The notes beneath the pieces were generated by a model. That model had not been told where the DNA came from. It was given only the letters and a program-made list of their open reading frames with translations, and did no database searches. A DNA stretch of 64,000 nucleotides from Aequorivita xiaoshiensis (GTDB lineage: Bacteria; Bacteroidota; Bacteroidia; Flavobacteriales; Flavobacteriaceae): NCBI RefSeq assembly GCF_022008395.1, contig NZ_JAIRBB010000002.1, positions 186,001 through 250,000 on the forward strand, given 5' to 3'. A program made the translations under genes and the position numbers. This document shows, in pieces, positions 47,367-53,161 of this stretch (positions are counted from its first letter, which is position 1; each line of letters begins with the position of its first letter).

Positions 47367-47425
47367 AACTGTTTTTATTAGTATTTGAGATTCAACTCCT
47401 CTAAACTAATAAAAACAGTTTTTTT
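47367..47425. terminator. Strong terminator between hpf/ArsC-like and PKS operon ends
   Basis: A 16-bp perfect stem, AACTGTTTTTATTAGT with its complement, holds a 22-base loop and is followed by five further T. It separates the convergent hpf unit and the PKS operon. Confidence 0.8.
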
Positions 47426-47467: not shown

Positions 47468-47716
47468 TTAGTCCGTTTTCTGTTTGATTAAATTAATTAC
47501 ATCATTCAGGTTTCTAAGTTTTTCAAGATCTTCATTTTTTATTTCGATATCAAAAACATCTTCTACATCTAGAACAATATCAATTAAATGGGCTGAGTTG
47601 ATATTCAATTCTTTTGTAAGATCACTTTCTCTACTAATTTCCATTTTAGAAACATCTTCTGGTAGGTAGTTCTTTATAATTGGTTCAATTTTTATATAAA
47701 TTTCTTCTGATGTCAT
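47468..47716 (-). CDS. Acyl carrier protein of the type III PKS cluster
   Basis: The 82-residue acidic four-helix protein fits ACP size. The phosphopantetheine site is Ser41 in LNINSAHLIDIVLDVEDVF; it reads NSAH instead of the usual DSL/DSM. The downstream helix VEDVFDIEI is as in ACPs. It is the last gene of the operon, 3 bp after the ketosynthase, and should carry the growing acyl chain for the neighbouring FabL-, FabZ- and FabF-like enzymes. A dedicated ACP suggests a starter unit kept apart from primary fatty acids. Confidence 0.82.
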   Translation of the reverse strand: MTSEEIYIKIEPIIKNYLPEDVSKMEISRESDLTKELNINSAHLIDIVLDVEDVFDIEIKNEDLEKLRNLNDVINLIKQKTD

Positions 47717-47719
47717 ATT

Positions 47720-48994
47720 TTATTTATTTTTTTTGAAAATAACACAAGCGTTAACATCTCCAAACCCAAAACTCGCTTTGGCCATTATGTTAAATGTTTT
47801 GTAAAGAGTTTGTGTAGGAATTTTTTCTATGGAAATATTCTTTAGTATTTCGGGGTGTATAGGCTCACAATTATTATTTTGAAAAATAAACCCTTCTTTC
47901 ATTTGCACTAATGCTGAAACTATTTCGATACTAGCACTCGCACCTATACAATGCCCTATCGCACCTTTTAAGGAATTTATAAAAGGAAAGTTATTTCCAT
48001 TTCTATTAAGTGCTTTACACCAACTTTCAATTTCGTCGGGGTCTTTAGAAGTTGCCGTTAAATGACCATTTATATATTCGATATCTCTTCCATTTACTTT
48101 TGAATCAATTAAGGCTGCTTCAATACATCTTACAATAGCTTTATTGTTAGGAGCTGTCATAGTTCCTTTACCTCTTTGACCACCGTTATTTATGGCGCCA
48201 CCTAAAACTTCTGCATATATATTAGCTCCTCTTTCCTGTGCACTCTCTAATGACTCTAGTAGATAGGCCCCTGCTCCACTACCTGGTATAAAACCTTTTG
48301 CCGTTTCATTTAAAGGACCCGGAACTTCTTCGGGAGCATCGTTATATCTATAATTGGTAATTCTTAAGGCGTCAAAACCTGCCCAAATATATGGCCCATG
48401 ATCACTAGTACTCCCACAAAGCATTTGCTTGGCTTTGCCAGTTTTTATTCTTTCGTAACCTAATAGTAGCGCCTCAGTACCAGTGGAACAGGCAGATGAG
48501 TTTGTTGTAACAATATTCCCTGCACCAATTAAACCACCTAAATAAGCGCTAATTCCGCTAGTCATTATTTGTTGAACGGTATTACTACTTAACCTACGTG
48601 CTTTTCTATCATCTACTTTATGTATGCTTTCTCTAAACTTTTCTACGCTACTTACTCCGGTTCCAAAAATAATTCCTAAATCCCATAAAGGGTCATCATC
48701 AATTTTAGATGTTGAAATTTTCGCATCTTTTAAAGCATCCATTCCTGCAATTACACCATATAAAATACTACTACTTTTAAAATTTCGTAGCTGTAATTCT
48801 GTAAAATACTCCCTTTTTTTTTCTTCACTAACTTCGGGAATGGCACCTAAATGACAAGAAAACTTTAAATCTTCCAATTCAGAATAATAGCGAATTCCAG
48901 AATTACCATTTTTTAATGCTTTCGTAAAATCGGATAACCCCACTCCTATTGGGGAACATACACCTAAACCAGTTATTACAACTCTATTTTTCAT
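47720..48994 (-). CDS. Beta-ketoacyl-ACP synthase (FabF-like) of the PKS cluster
   Basis: The 424-residue ketosynthase has catalytic Cys169 in TNSSACSTG, His311 in YINGHLTATS (the usual HGTST reads HLTAT), and Lys343 and His348 in SLKGAIGHCIGA. The N-terminal VVITGLGVCSPIG is typical. This is a full KAS II, so decarboxylating condensation of acyl-ACP with malonyl-ACP is expected. It overlaps the dehydratase gene by 11 bp. The role is elongation of the acyl chain for the type III PKS; the chain length is not evident. Confidence 0.88.
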   Translation of the reverse strand: MKNRVVITGLGVCSPIGVGLSDFTKALKNGNSGIRYYSELEDLKFSCHLGAIPEVSEEKKREYFTELQLRNFKSSSILYGVIAGMDALKDAKISTSKIDDDPLWDLGIIFGTGVSSVEKFRESIHKVDDRKARRLSSNTVQQIMTSGISAYLGGLIGAGNIVTTNSSACSTGTEALLLGYERIKTGKAKQMLCGSTSDHGPYIWAGFDALRITNYRYNDAPEEVPGPLNETAKGFIPGSGAGAYLLESLESAQERGANIYAEVLGGAINNGGQRGKGTMTAPNNKAIVRCIEAALIDSKVNGRDIEYINGHLTATSKDPDEIESWCKALNRNGNNFPFINSLKGAIGHCIGASASIEIVSALVQMKEGFIFQNNNCEPIHPEILKNISIEKIPTQTLYKTFNIMAKASFGFGDVNACVIFKKNK

Positions 48995-49427
48995 ACTTCT
49001 TTATCATTCCGCTTAATTCACCTTTCGCCACTAGCTCCCCTTTTTCATTAAACATTTTAACCTTGCATTTTAATTTATTAAATCTAAAGTAAACCTTTTC
49101 AGAAACTACGTTTACTTTTTCTCCAGGAAACACAGGAATTAAAAAGTCAACTTGAGAATTGCTAAATGCAACAGTAGTTTTTACAGAAACCTCTTCTGAA
49201 TTTAATAAATAGATTCCCATACACACAAGTCCGATTTGAGCCATACATTCTATAAGGATTACACCTGGTGTTACTGGGTTATTTTTAAAATGACTTTTGT
49301 AAAAATATTCGTCCTTTTTAAAAGTATAGTAGCCATCGACCCTTTCAGAAGAAATTATAGTGAGTTTGTCCACAAATAAAAATTCGGGGCCGTAAGGGAG
49401 CAGTTTTATTATGTTATCACTCTTCAA
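48984..49427 (-). CDS. FabZ-like 3-hydroxyacyl-ACP dehydratase
   Basis: The 147-residue hot-dog protein carries the catalytic His46 in SHFKNNPVTPG (like HFPGxPVMPG) and Glu60 in LIECMAQIG. The N-terminal LLPYGPEFLFVDKL lacks the His of the common LPHRYPFLLVD, but that His is not catalytic. It dehydrates 3-hydroxyacyl-ACP. It lies 14 bp after the reductase gene and overlaps the ketosynthase gene. Confidence 0.83.
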   Translation of the reverse strand: MKSDNIIKLLPYGPEFLFVDKLTIISSERVDGYYTFKKDEYFYKSHFKNNPVTPGVILIECMAQIGLVCMGIYLLNSEEVSVKTTVAFSNSQVDFLIPVFPGEKVNVVSEKVYFRFNKLKCKVKMFNEKGELVAKGELSGMIKKYEK

Positions 49428-49441
49428 ATTTTATTTTTTAA

Positions 49442-50209
49442 TTACCGAAGACTTTCGCCCCCATCAACTTTTATAATAGTTCCATTTATCCACTTAGCTT
49501 CATCTTTACAAAGTAAAAAAACCACATTTGCGACATCTTCTGCTTGAGTCATTCTTTTAAATGGATTTCTCTTTTTACTCATTTCTGCTAATTTCTCACT
49601 ACCTGGAATCATTTTAAATGATGCGGTTTTTGTGGTGCCTGCTTGAATACAATTGGATGTAATATTAAGTGAAGCAAGTTCTACAGCCATACTTCTCATT
49701 AAAGATTCTAATACCGATTTGGCAGCTGAAACGGCTGCGTACCCAGGCCAAACTCTTGTATTTCCTTCACTTGTAAAAGCTAGATTTCTAGCACAATCTG
49801 AAAATTTATTATGTTGGATTAATTCCTGTGTCCACTCGTACCAACTAGTCGCCATTGCATGTATTGTTATATCTAAATCTTGTTTGCTAAGACAAGCTTC
49901 ATCGTTAGTCATATTCTTTAAACTTCCTTTCGCAATACTATGTAGTAACACTTTCACACTATTTGCTGGTAATTCAGAAATTATTATATTTCGCACCTCT
50001 CTATTTAAAGCATCTCTGTTAAACGTTTTTATAGCTACTCCAAATGCTTTTAATTTAGAAACTTCAGCTTCAAATTCAGGGATATTACTTCTTCTATCTC
50101 TGTGAACAATACATATATTCATTCCTTCTGAAGCGAGTTTAATAGCACTTGCAAGACCTAAACCACTACTTCCACCTAAAATTACTGCCCATTGATTTTT
50201 AAAACTCAT
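49442..50209 (-). CDS. Enoyl-ACP reductase of FabL/FabI type (SDR)
   Basis: The 255-residue SDR has GGSSGLGLASAIKLASEG (nucleotide site), LLHSIAKGSL, and the active-site segment GYAAVSAAKSVLE. Here Tyr and Lys are spaced Y-x6-K, as in FabI/FabL, instead of the Y-x3-K of FabG. A late VDGGESLR is typical. Thus an enoyl reductase is more likely than a ketoacyl reductase. The operon has no obvious ketoreductase, so the housekeeping FabG probably supplies it. It follows the PKS gene by 11 bp. Confidence 0.78.
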   Translation of the reverse strand: MSFKNQWAVILGGSSGLGLASAIKLASEGMNICIVHRDRRSNIPEFEAEVSKLKAFGVAIKTFNRDALNREVRNIIISELPANSVKVLLHSIAKGSLKNMTNDEACLSKQDLDITIHAMATSWYEWTQELIQHNKFSDCARNLAFTSEGNTRVWPGYAAVSAAKSVLESLMRSMAVELASLNITSNCIQAGTTKTASFKMIPGSEKLAEMSKKRNPFKRMTQAEDVANVVFLLCKDEAKWINGTIIKVDGGESLR

Positions 50210-50220
50210 AGTCTCTTGCC

Positions 50221-51270
50221 TTAAAACCTTAACAATATGCGCTGAGCCGAAAACCCAGGGCCAAAACTTAGCATAAGTCCGTAGGATCCAGCTTCAGGAT
50301 TTCGTGTCATAAATCTTTCTAATACAAAAAGAACGGTGGCACTACTCATGTTTCCATAGAGTCTTAAAACTTCCTTGGTATCGGTAATATTTTTCCCTAA
50401 TTTACCAAAAAGTTCTTCCACAGTTTCTACAATTTTCCTACCTCCAGGGTGGAAAATAAGATGGTCTATATTTTCAATTTCTAAATTATTCTTTCTTAAA
50501 AATGGGTGAATAATTTTAGGGAAGTGCTCTGCAATTTTTTCAGGTACTTCCTTATCTAATATCATTTGTAATCCGGTATCAACAAGTTTAAATCCCATCA
50601 TATCTGTGGCATCATAAAAGTGATACATTTCATCAGCAATTATCTCAGCCCCAGTATCCTCCTCGCAAGAAGATAATAAAACACAAGCAGCACCATCTCC
50701 AAATATTGCGGTACTTACAATGTTTGCCATTGAATAATCATTAATTTGAAAAGTAGCAGACGGAGCTTCTATTGAAATTAAGGCTGCTCTTTTACCTGGA
50801 TTCGCTTTTAAAAAATTTCGGGCATAAATCATTCCAGAAATACCTGCAGCGCACCCCATTTCAGTTACAGGTAAACGCACCACGTCATCTCTCATTTTAA
50901 GGTCATTAATTATGTAAGCATCAACCGATGGAATCATAATTCCTGTACAACTTACTGTAATAATAAAATCGATATCAGTAGGATCCCAATTAGCTTTATC
51001 TAGTGCATTTTGTAGGCATTCTTTTCCCATCTTTTTTATTTCCTTAACGTAAATGTCATTACGAGCTTCAAAACTGGGATTTTCAAATACTTCTACAGGA
51101 TTCATAATAGAATAGCGTTTGTCAACCCCTGCTCCTTCCATTATTTTAACTACTTTACGTTTGTATCGATTATCTTGACCGCTCATCCAATTTTTAACTA
51201 GCTCAATAATTTCAGGTGTTTCTCTGCCATGTTGAGCTACTTGAGTCGAAACTGTTGTGATTCTTACCAT
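50221..51270 (-). CDS. Type III polyketide synthase (chalcone synthase-like)
   Basis: The 349-residue protein has the type III PKS triad: Cys140 in TEMGCAAG, His274 in IFHPGG and Asn307 in YGNMSSATV, and the C-terminal SFGPGFSAQ, equivalent to the GFGPG loop of plant chalcone synthases. Type III PKSs extend an acyl-CoA or acyl-ACP with malonyl units and cyclise it to resorcinols, pyrones or phloroglucinols. The start overlaps the methyltransferase stop (TAATG). Bacterial relatives with methyltransferase and flavoprotein partners (SrsA of Streptomyces griseus) make alkylresorcinols. Substrate and ring type cannot be read from the sequence. Confidence 0.92.
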   Translation of the reverse strand: MVRITTVSTQVAQHGRETPEIIELVKNWMSGQDNRYKRKVVKIMEGAGVDKRYSIMNPVEVFENPSFEARNDIYVKEIKKMGKECLQNALDKANWDPTDIDFIITVSCTGIMIPSVDAYIINDLKMRDDVVRLPVTEMGCAAGISGMIYARNFLKANPGKRAALISIEAPSATFQINDYSMANIVSTAIFGDGAACVLLSSCEEDTGAEIIADEMYHFYDATDMMGFKLVDTGLQMILDKEVPEKIAEHFPKIIHPFLRKNNLEIENIDHLIFHPGGRKIVETVEELFGKLGKNITDTKEVLRLYGNMSSATVLFVLERFMTRNPEAGSYGLMLSFGPGFSAQRILLRF

Positions 51271-51989
51271 TATCTATTTTTTTTTATTATCCATTGAAAT
51301 CTGTATGCCCAACACCAACGGATAGTGCTTCTTTGATTTGGAATATGCTCTGAAAATTTTACTAGTTCATTTTTTTTAAAACCTTTTGCGATGGATATTA
51401 AACCGTCATGTCTAGCCGTTTTTGTTTTCAGAAATAATTTATGTACCAATTTAAACAAATTAAATGCTAGTTTGCTTCTTTCTAAATCATTTATAACTAT
51501 CCCTAATCGTGACTTTATCAAAATTTTTTTTGTTAACTTTTTTATTTCTTCATTATTAAAGTGATGAAGAAATAATGTACATAAAACAATATCGGTTTCA
51601 GGAATTGCCTCTGTGTTGTTTACAACGTCCATATTAAGAAATGAAATATTTGAATAAGCAGCGCTTTTGGATTTGGCTATTTCTAATATGTTTTCATTGA
51701 AATCTATACCAATAAGCTTAAAACTTAAATTTTGCTTTGCAGAATAATCAGCACATCTTCTTAGCATTTCTCCGTCGCCACATCCTATATCAAGTATTGT
51801 AACAGTAGTACCTTTTGAGTGATTTTTTATTAACTTTTTTACCCCATCAATTGTAATGTGATTGCCACCCAACCATTTGTTTATGGTCTTTAAGTCATTC
51901 AGTAGGTTTTTCAATTCTTCTCCTTGAAAATCTAAACTGTCCATCACTTCTACTTGAGAAGATCTATGTTTATTACTGAAATTAATCAT
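51270..51989 (-). CDS. SAM-dependent methyltransferase of the PKS cluster
   Basis: The 239-residue class I methyltransferase shows the SAM motif I TILDIGCGDGEMLRRC, followed by LIGIDFNENILEIA, and motif IV-like DIVLCTLFLHHF. It overlaps the flavoprotein gene by 4 bp (ATGA) and the PKS gene by 1 bp. Its likely substrate is the phenolic product of the PKS, by analogy with SrsB, which makes alkylresorcinol methyl ethers. Confidence 0.84.
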   Translation of the reverse strand: MINFSNKHRSSQVEVMDSLDFQGEELKNLLNDLKTINKWLGGNHITIDGVKKLIKNHSKGTTVTILDIGCGDGEMLRRCADYSAKQNLSFKLIGIDFNENILEIAKSKSAAYSNISFLNMDVVNNTEAIPETDIVLCTLFLHHFNNEEIKKLTKKILIKSRLGIVINDLERSKLAFNLFKLVHKLFLKTKTARHDGLISIAKGFKKNELVKFSEHIPNQRSTIRWCWAYRFQWIIKKNR

Positions 51990-53113
51990 TTAGTAGGACT
52001 ACCATGTGTTTTTTTTATTAGTATAGGGATTATTGAGGGAAATATTTTGGCTACGGAGAATCCAATTTTTGAACTATGAGGATTCACTAGCAAACTTTGA
52101 ATAATTCTTCCTGTTTTTAGCCTTTTTCCAAACTCAATATTCCATAATCGTGTGTAATTCATCTCTAAAACACCTCTGTTAAATCTATCCTTATGCATTG
52201 CTTTTAAAAATGAATGTGAAAATATTTGAGCACTTCTAATGGCCATTGCCATCCCGTTTCCACATAAGGGATGAATTAATCCAGCACTGTCACCAATCAT
52301 AAAGATATGATTTTCTACGGGCTTCTTTCTTTGAAAAGAGACTTGACTTATCGTTAATGGGTGTTGGAAAATAGGCTTGGCATTATTATAAAATTCTTTT
52401 AAAAATGGGTTCTTACTCATTTCGTTACTTTGAAAAGCATCGATTTTACCATATTTTTTAAAGGCTTTAAAAGTGGTTAAATAACAAGCATTAACAGCAT
52501 TAGTTTCGATTTTACTAAGACCGCAATACCCGCCATTAAAGTTGTGTAAAGCCACAGTATCCTCGGGAAAATCAAATTCATAATGACCCTTAACAGCAAG
52601 CCAAGGTGATTTTTGTAATATAAAATCTCTTTTTAGAAAAGAATCAATATTCGATCTTTTTCCAAATGCTCCCACCACAAAATCTGCATTAAATACTTTC
52701 TTGTTCTGAGTGGATACTTCAAAACTATTGTCTTGAAAAACTATTTTTTCGACAGTTTGAAATATTATTTCTATTCTAAATTTTAAAGCTTCATAAATTA
52801 GATTATCAAAGGCGTACCGACTAATTCCGAAGCCACCTAAGGGAAGATTTGTGTTTAGAGTTGTACCTTCTAAATTCGTAATATTGAATCTTTTAATTTT
52901 TTTTGCTCCAACAGAAAAAGGATCAATGTTTAGGGATTTTAGGTAAGGTAAAATTTCATTACTCACATATTCACCACATACTTTATGGTTTGGATATGAA
53001 TTCTTTTCTATCAAGCATATCTTTAAATTATGATTAGATAAATGTAAGGCTGTGGTAAGGCCTGCAAGACCTCCACCTATTATAATTAAATCCCATTTAT
53101 TTTTTTTAACCAT
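51986..53113 (-). CDS. FAD-dependent oxidoreductase (geranylgeranyl reductase-like) of the PKS cluster
   Basis: The protein begins at ATG 53113 (MVKKNKWDLIIIGGG) and is 375 residues long. The FAD site is LIIIGGGLAGLTTALHLS, the second motif is CLIEKNSYPNHKVCGEYVS, and the C-terminal FMIGDSAGLIHPLCGNGMAM binds the FAD pyrophosphate. This is the UbiH/geranylgeranyl reductase superfamily (monooxygenases and reductases). A possible TTG at 53146 would put the ribosome site inside the terminator hairpin, so the ATG is chosen. It is the first gene of the operon. By analogy with SrsC it may hydroxylate the phenolic product to a quinol; reduction of a prenyl-like chain is the alternative. Confidence 0.8.
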   Translation of the reverse strand: MVKKNKWDLIIIGGGLAGLTTALHLSNHNLKICLIEKNSYPNHKVCGEYVSNEILPYLKSLNIDPFSVGAKKIKRFNITNLEGTTLNTNLPLGGFGISRYAFDNLIYEALKFRIEIIFQTVEKIVFQDNSFEVSTQNKKVFNADFVVGAFGKRSNIDSFLKRDFILQKSPWLAVKGHYEFDFPEDTVALHNFNGGYCGLSKIETNAVNACYLTTFKAFKKYGKIDAFQSNEMSKNPFLKEFYNNAKPIFQHPLTISQVSFQRKKPVENHIFMIGDSAGLIHPLCGNGMAMAIRSAQIFSHSFLKAMHKDRFNRGVLEMNYTRLWNIEFGKRLKTGRIIQSLLVNPHSSKIGFSVAKIFPSIIPILIKKTHGSPTK

Positions 53114-53132
53114 AATATCAAATAAAAATAAA

Positions 53133-53161
53133 AAATCCCGCTCCAATTATGGGCGGGATTT
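53133..53161. terminator. Terminator between ompA-like gene and PKS operon
   Basis: A 9-bp stem, AAATCCCGC with GCGGGATTT, plus an inner CC/GG pair, flanked by A and T runs. It ends the ompA-like unit and lies only 19 bp before the PKS-operon start codon. Confidence 0.8.

Follow-up and report, generated by a model that had tools for sequence, protein, structure and literature searches.

A type III polyketide synthase operon of Aequorivita with a candidate acyl-starter cassette

The 64,000-nucleotide stretch of the Aequorivita xiaoshiensis genome analysed here (the window; contig NZ_JAIRBB010000002.1, positions 186,001 to 250,000) encodes a type III polyketide synthase (PKS) in one operon with four proteins that resemble enzymes of fatty-acid synthesis (FAS). 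Do these proteins build a starter for the PKS, or do they serve another purpose? Our comparison makes it probable that they form a dedicated module, in which a chain bound to an acyl carrier protein (ACP) would be fed to the PKS to give a tailored phenolic lipid.

The operon (47468-53113) consists of seven minus-strand genes, whose junctions range from an 11-bp overlap to a 14-bp gap in the open reading frame (ORF) listing of the window. A flavin adenine dinucleotide (FAD)-dependent protein comes first, overlapping the methyltransferase (MT) gene by 4 bp. The MT and PKS genes overlap by 1 bp, and the enoyl reductase (ER), dehydratase (DH), ketosynthase (KS) and ACP genes follow at +11, +14, -11 and +3 bp. 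Gene content, strand and spacing had been described in this way by a first-pass annotation made from the sequence alone, and the ORFs, the gaps and Pfam, which places all seven proteins in the superfamilies it named, bear the description out. Its remark that there is neither a ketoreductase nor an export gene likewise holds for the seven genes of the operon itself, as judged from the ORF list and Pfam.

Conservation of the operon and its ketosynthase

The KS is a constant neighbour of the PKS. The PKS clade occurs in 33 of the 395 genomes searched in a phylum sample (above 600 bits, with the next matches at 263 or less). A KS search of 385 genomes found the KS in all 33, on the same strand and 448-1530 bp downstream. 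The gap lacks an ER-sized insert in 17 of these genomes, contains one in 15 and is of intermediate size in 1. Within a class sample (395 genomes per search), the KS lies beside the PKS in 26/26 genomes with a PKS match at E <= 1e-90, adjacency being read off the listed positions. The two samples overlap and together hold 46 distinct PKS genomes, all 46 with the same kind of KS just downstream. This linkage, together with the reuse of the cassette elsewhere, supports the starter-building module that the first-pass annotation had proposed. Three cassette KS genes carry one in-frame TAA each (G476:C2:180172, G1041:C8:84145 and G915:C292:43) and are possible pseudogenes or sequence errors.

Aequorivita sinensis has a PKS with 95% identity to that of the window, and 143 of 397 sampled Flavobacteriaceae genomes contain a match at E <= 1e-40. 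One of the 143 (G072, locus L036) has a PKS of just 34% identity and none of the operon neighbours. A scan of named genomes retained the best 80 of at least 567 PKS loci, to which the following counts refer. They include loci from Flavobacterium, Polaribacter, Aquimarina, Gelidibacter, Salinimicrobium, Ulvibacter, Altibacter and Pedobacter. Because they are the best-scoring loci, the frequencies of the ER and of a phosphopantetheinyl transferase (PPTase) are valid for close relatives only. The set FAD-MT-PKS-DH-KS-ACP is complete, in the same order and on the same strand, in 74/80 loci; the other six miss at least one gene, nearly all at contig ends. DH is present in 80/80 and KS in 79/80, the sole miss being at a contig end. 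The gene set and order are conserved far beyond chance.

The ER is an optional part of the operon, found in 31 loci and not in 49. A PPTase gene follows the ACP gene in 52 loci (one example, checked, belongs to Pfam ACPS). The order FAD-MT-PKS-DH-KS-ACP-PPTase occurs 44 times and FAD-MT-PKS-ER-DH-KS-ACP 21 times; seven loci have both the ER and the PPTase, and two have neither. Though a frequent eighth gene in relatives, the PPTase was not found next to the operon in the lineage of the window. Many operons share the site of the window operon, after E1, lipocalin-like and OmpA-lipoprotein genes and before an HPF gene, which fits vertical inheritance.

No hidden ketoreductase was found among the inserts of more than 250 bp in the 80 loci, which, judged from their sequence starts, are unlike short-chain reductases. 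They were labelled by eye, for example as transposase-like, DsbA-like or hydrolase-like. A transposase-like gene lies between PKS and DH in Polaribacter isolates and metagenome-assembled genomes (L079, L093, L109, L120), and a similar gene of ~295 residues is inserted between DH and KS in Aquimarina (L127, L128, L134). The DH is not seen at L044, where the FAD gene is in two frames; at L037 the PKS, FAD and E1 genes are broken up into overlapping fragments, from frameshifts or assembly errors.

Separation from housekeeping synthesis and use outside the operon

All four FAS-like proteins score below the curated cut-offs of the primary NCBIfam families that they match (KS against FabF, 246.5 bits for a cut-off of 493.75; DH against FabZ, 64.5 for 113; ER against FabL, 140.5 for 328; ACP, 51.8 for 66). 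The closest Protein Data Bank entry to the ER is 3oic, an enoyl-ACP reductase [NADPH]. The housekeeping FabF, to which the operon KS is 28% identical, is encoded on contig C11 beside an ACP and reaches 600.7 bits against the cut-off of 493.75. A DH paralogue lies inside a 474-residue frame at C22:125343, taken from its length for an LpxC/FabZ fusion. That the operon might hold the sole FAS genes of the genome, which the first-pass annotation had raised against its own proposal, is excluded by the location of FabF and its neighbouring ACP elsewhere. Decay, or a remnant of primary FAS, was rejected on the basis of the sub-cut-off scores, the separate FabF-ACP pair and the substitution ratios given below. 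A second KS/ACP/reductase group of the same genome (C32:98575-113226; L137-L140, L143, L151), with one frame DarB-like by eye, may be a flexirubin-type cluster.

There are also nine genomes in which the KS occurs without this PKS clade: four come from the phylum sample and six from the class sample, with one counted in both. Four of the nine (G830, G849, G915, G1083) are 83-91% complete and L212 begins at its KS, so that the absence of the PKS is less sure there. At L203, ER-DH-KS-ACP-PPTase and darB-darG are divergently oriented, and between them lie a 166-residue gene and a putative darA. DarB (634.8 bits) and DarG (197.8 bits) are both above cut-off; the darA label is given by position, the family search having returned no match, and another short-chain reductase nearby scores as a D-mannonate oxidoreductase. 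Locus L205 has the order glycosyltransferase, GNAT, then ER-DH-KS-ACP. At L204 and L206, DH-KS-ACP is flanked by a glycosyltransferase gene and by a gene that by eye resembles the L205 GNAT (family tests covered the L205 proteins and the L204 glycosyltransferase). ACP-ER-DH-KS-PPTase stands alone at L207 and L209, and L208 combines ACP, ER, DH, KS and PPTase with a KASIII-type protein. KS-ACP-PPTase is found at a contig end at L210, and among genes of glycan-related look at L211, which has a DH, and L212, which opens at a contig end. About 4 kb beyond the L205 cassette, on the same strand, lies a BioF/Kbl-type acyltransferase, serine-palmitoyltransferase-like (L205:2480-3706), possibly another acyl-ACP user.

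Every PKS-less cassette KS contains GHLTxT, and the ACP attachment site is INS in all these cassettes except those of L204 and L206 (LDS). In the tree, KSs from inside and outside the operon fall into a single group (support 100/100), apart from FabF and the C32 KSs of the genome; the tree was read without row L140_own, which is DarB-like by eye, not a KS, and misplaced. An ER with an intact motif is retained in the lineage of the window and in several PKS-less cassettes, and no ketoreductase was recognised inside these cassettes from the ORF lists. The cassette thus looks like a portable, ketoreductase-less mini-FAS. The strongest circumstantial evidence for a role in acyl supply is that it recurs near DarB, which belongs to another resorcinol-forming system.

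Enzymes and features of the window operon

The Cys-His-Asn triad that the first-pass annotation had found intact in the PKS is invariant in our alignment of 19 sequences (C140/H274/N307). So are C169/H311/H348 and the HLTAT motif of the KS (19 sequences), H46 and E60 of the DH (19), Ser41 of the ACP, within INS (20), and Y157-X6-K164 of the ER (18). The last is Y-X6-K rather than Y-X3-K, the form of active site that marks FabI/FabL-type enoyl reductases. The PKS alignment omits L036, a different type III PKS, and the broken L037, which the KS alignment omits as well. The longest ORF start was used, and some sequences start too early, such as the L038 ER. Ratios of nonsynonymous to synonymous substitution (dN/dS) against A. 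sinensis lie between 0.036 and 0.257 (FAD 0.17, MT 0.26, PKS 0.08, ER 0.18, DH 0.17, KS 0.10, ACP 0.04), and all seven genes therefore look to be under purifying selection. The variant motifs listed by the first-pass annotation are present; the alignments correct their meaning, as they are traits of the whole family and no mark of decay.

A 40-row tree places the PKS in a separate clade (100/100), to which neither the PKSs of Bacteroidota three-gene operons nor those of a second group belong; the tree omits the Srs, Pkq and Hid enzymes, and its long branches make sister relations unsafe. The nearest solved structure by sequence is Mycobacterium tuberculosis Pks11. Pks11 is also the best match of the AlphaFold2 (AF2) model (predicted local distance difference test, pLDDT, 85.6), with Z 45.1 and a root-mean-square deviation (rmsd) of 2.5 over 346 aligned residues. 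CylI is second (Z 43.5, rmsd 2.4, 343 aligned), and the remainder have Z <=40.3. The best NCBIfam model, DpgA, has a cut-off of 425 bits, and the PKS reaches no more than 174.4.

Residue 227 of the PKS is Phe in 97/97 clade members counted, after exclusion of L036 and of PKS frames no longer than 330 residues, and in the clade members L182 and L183 (99 in total). L213 and L214 have Phe as well; Tyr occurs in L215 and L036, and Trp in 18/18 other Bacteroidota type III PKSs. The alignment and the nine-residue spacing to Met236, like that of Gly284 and Met293 in ArsC (PMC6274091; this and the other papers are cited from excerpts), lead us to infer that residue 227 is equivalent to ArsB Trp281 and ArsC Gly284. 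In ArsB an aromatic residue at this position favours aldol closure. The position taken for Phe265 of chalcone synthase (CHS) is Met, as reported for HidC (PMC8086630), and Ile in L213 and L214. The Met would fit a long-chain starter.

The AF2 model of the flavoprotein (pLDDT 87.8) matches flavin halogenases and aromatic hydroxylases best (Z 31-35). The flavin halogenase motif WxWxIP was not seen in the protein by eye, and the scores of phenol hydroxylases come within a few Z units of that of the halogenase PltA, so that a predicted hydroxylase is favoured over a halogenase or reductase. The first-pass annotation had read the first three genes by the logic of srsABC. This is supported in part. 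FAD homologues (29.6-40.6% identity; L195, L197, L198, L200) and MT homologues (29.5-38.6%; L194, L195, L197, L198, L200) lie near cassette-less Bacteroidota type III PKSs, with an opposite-strand gene separating the FAD gene at L198. The PKS itself stands in a clade of its own among the sequences compared. One operon has a tandem pair of methyltransferase genes (L215:3075-4501), hinting at a doubly methylated product.

Table 1. Genes and flanking elements of the operon (positions in the window)
Feature	Position	Strand	Basis
FAD-dependent flavoprotein, monooxygenase-like by fold, operon gene 1	51986..53113	-	Pfam FAD-binding families; AF2 model
Class I S-adenosylmethionine-dependent methyltransferase	51270..51989	-	Pfam Methyltransf_25; NCBIfam PRK06202-like, below cut-off
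Type III PKS, Cys140-His274-Asn307	50221..51270	-	Pfam Chal_sti_synt_N/C; AF2 model; tree
FabL-like enoyl reductase, Y157-X6-K164, optional	49442..50209	-	Pfam adh_short_C2; NCBIfam FabL nearest, below cut-off
FabZ-like dehydratase, H46 and E60, TTG start (49427)	48984..49427	-	Pfam FabA-like; NCBIfam FabZ models below cut-off
Ketosynthase, GHLTxT family, C169/H311/H348	47720..48994	-	Pfam ketoacyl-synt N/C; FabF model below cut-off
Acyl carrier protein, INS attachment site	47468..47716	-	Pfam PP-binding
Probable intrinsic terminator, ahead of the operon start, of the OmpA-lipoprotein gene upstream	53129..53160	-	GC-rich hairpin and T run, -16.9 kcal/mol
A+T-rich inverted repeat, possible two-way terminator, between operon end and convergent gene	47370..47417	.	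Fold

The listed FAD ORF opens at TTG 53146; ATG 53113, the start given by the first-pass annotation, agrees with the relatives. This ATG lies ~15 bp past the T run of the terminator-like hairpin of the OmpA-lipoprotein gene, with no obvious space for a promoter (53113-53160). A simple terminator scan picked up neither of the two elements in Table 1. A sigma-70 promoter scan gave 33 hits for 32.6 expected, so that co-transcription is predicted from gene spacing.

Proposed acyl supply, alternatives and known systems

The gene set, the intact active sites, the constant linkage of KS and PKS and the reuse of the cassette are observations; the direction of acyl flow, the ACP hand-over, the chain and ring types and the tailoring steps with their order are what we infer here. 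An acyl chain would be extended on the dedicated ACP by the GHLTxT KS, the FabZ-like DH and, where present, the FabL-like ER, with a ketoreductase borrowed from housekeeping synthesis; in many relatives the cassette also has a PPTase of its own. The PKS would receive the chain, most likely directly from the ACP, add malonyl units and close an aromatic ring, with a resorcinol type favoured over a pyrone. Methylation and oxidation of the ring by the MT and the flavoprotein may follow, with a quinone or hydroquinone as the probable outcome. The Pks11 and CylI neighbours, the aromatic residue 227 and the monooxygenase-like flavoprotein together point to a product that is a phenolic lipid or quinone carrying methylation.

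Several findings weigh against this proposal. The best structural match of the flavoprotein is PltA, a halogenase, and its best NCBIfam model is a geranylgeranyl-reductase family (92 bits for a cut-off of 158.8). Pks11, named for alkylpyrones, carries Trp where residue 227 aligns, and this residue therefore cannot fix the ring type. Family f80 (L213, L214) showed no ACP beside the KS, which implies that a dedicated ACP is dispensable; in L214 the neighbouring genes include an ACP-KS pair similar to housekeeping acpP-fabF. As the ER was not found in 49/80 loci, the chain may be incompletely reduced, or the cassette may have another role. No ketoreductase was recognised in any cassette read. A related Zobellia enzyme is said, in a patent claim, to make phloroglucinol from malonyl-CoA.

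The PKS could instead act independently of the cassette chain, forming a ring from malonyl units only, such as phloroglucinol, or using free acyl-CoA, with the cassette lipid merely co-regulated. The cassette is separable, occurring without the PKS in nine genomes, and of the NCBIfam models the PKS matches DpgA best, albeit far below cut-off; DpgA uses malonyl units only. The Zobellia patent claim points in the same direction. The adjacent KS in 46/46 genomes, and the alkyl-chain products of Pks11 and CylI, the nearest structures, make such independence quite unlikely. A spare copy of housekeeping FAS, unrelated to the PKS, is highly improbable: the four proteins share the superfamilies of FabF, FabZ, FabL and AcpP, but they miss the curated cut-offs, the KS is distant from FabF and clusters with other cassette KSs, and its linkage to the PKS is fixed.

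A variant that falls within the favoured starter module, and overlaps with it in probability, concerns the chain itself, which might be handed over in unsaturated or beta-keto rather than saturated form. KS and DH without an ER would make enoyl or polyenyl chains, or a beta-ketoacyl-ACP would be passed on as for germicidin or CylI, and the product would be a ring lipid or pigment of alkenyl or polyenyl type. With KS and DH a constant pair and the ER optional, this is a serious alternative, if a somewhat unlikely one. By gap size the ER is absent in 17/33 genomes, with one undecided, in line with its absence from most of the 80 best loci. The cassettes lack a recognised ketoreductase, the titles of CylI crystal structures name a beta-ketoacyl-SNAC substrate, and DarB, encoded near the cassette at L203, uses an enoyl partner. 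The intact ER motif in the lineage of the window and in several PKS-less cassettes argues for reduction, which a housekeeping enoyl reductase could also carry out. More speculatively, KS-DH-ACP(-ER)-PPTase might be a portable mini-FAS of Bacteroidota that lacks a ketoreductase, is not described in the literature searched and serves at least three acyl-consuming systems, namely type III PKS, DarA/DarB and GNAT/glycosyltransferase, its ER-less forms feeding unsaturated chains to the PKS; we regard this as unlikely, and equally so its corollary that the product is a conjugated ring lipid or else a quinone of respiratory type.

Returning to the starter module, the match in 143/397 Flavobacteriaceae genomes and the conserved operon make the product likely to be a lipid important to common marine and soil bacteria. 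If it is a quinone, it would be an alternative electron carrier in a group regarded as dependent on menaquinone. The cassette offers a concrete test case for the acyl-ACP feeding of type III PKSs and a movable chain-building part for phenolic-lipid engineering.

Surveys with antiSMASH have reported type III PKS clusters in Flavobacteriaceae, at 0.39 per strain in one group (PMC7440613) and in all nine Aquimarina genomes (PMC9323603), and a 'T3pks-arylpolyene' cluster in Aequorivita (PMC6139392). These are very probably the same clusters as described here. The excerpts of the three surveys list them without describing a product or cassette, and no such description was found in the open-access literature searched by titles and abstract openings. 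Detection as a type III PKS cluster is thus already known; the comparative part, with the fixed KS, the optional ER, the PPTase and the reuse of the cassette, is new.

Operons of the srsABC, pkqABC and hidABC type lead through alkylresorcinols to methylated benzoquinones or hierridins (PMC9927152, PMC5916927, PMC10896814, PMC8086630). Three-gene operons of Streptomyces and Mycobacterium give methylated alkylbenzoquinones (PMC9927152, PMC5916927), and a planctomycete set expressed in another host gives methylated alkylresorcinols (PMC10896814). The operon shares with them the adjoining type III PKS, methyltransferase and flavoprotein genes, and differs in gene order and in three to five added FAS-like genes. 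Among the Bacteroidota enzymes compared, its PKS forms a clade of its own, in which residue 227 is Phe and not Trp.

ArsB/C, Gcs and CylI are described as type III PKSs that take over acyl chains directly from an ACP (PMC6274091, PMC8086630). The proposed ACP-bound starter is shared with CylI, a close structural match to the PKS model, and with germicidin synthase; the CylI chain comes from type I PKSs (PMC8086630), unlike that of a KS-DH-ACP cassette. Azotobacter arsABCD, in which acyl chains pass directly from the FAS-bound ACP to ArsB and ArsC (PMC6274091), likewise places dedicated FAS-like genes beside a type III PKS. Its enzymes are multidomain type I proteins (PMC5916927), whereas the KS, DH, ACP and optional ER here form a single-domain, type II-like set with no ketoreductase. 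The operon would resemble the flexirubin/dialkylresorcinol dar clusters in yielding resorcinol lipids, and at L203 the cassette itself lies near darB and darG. In dar clusters the ring is formed by DarA and DarB, not by a type III PKS.

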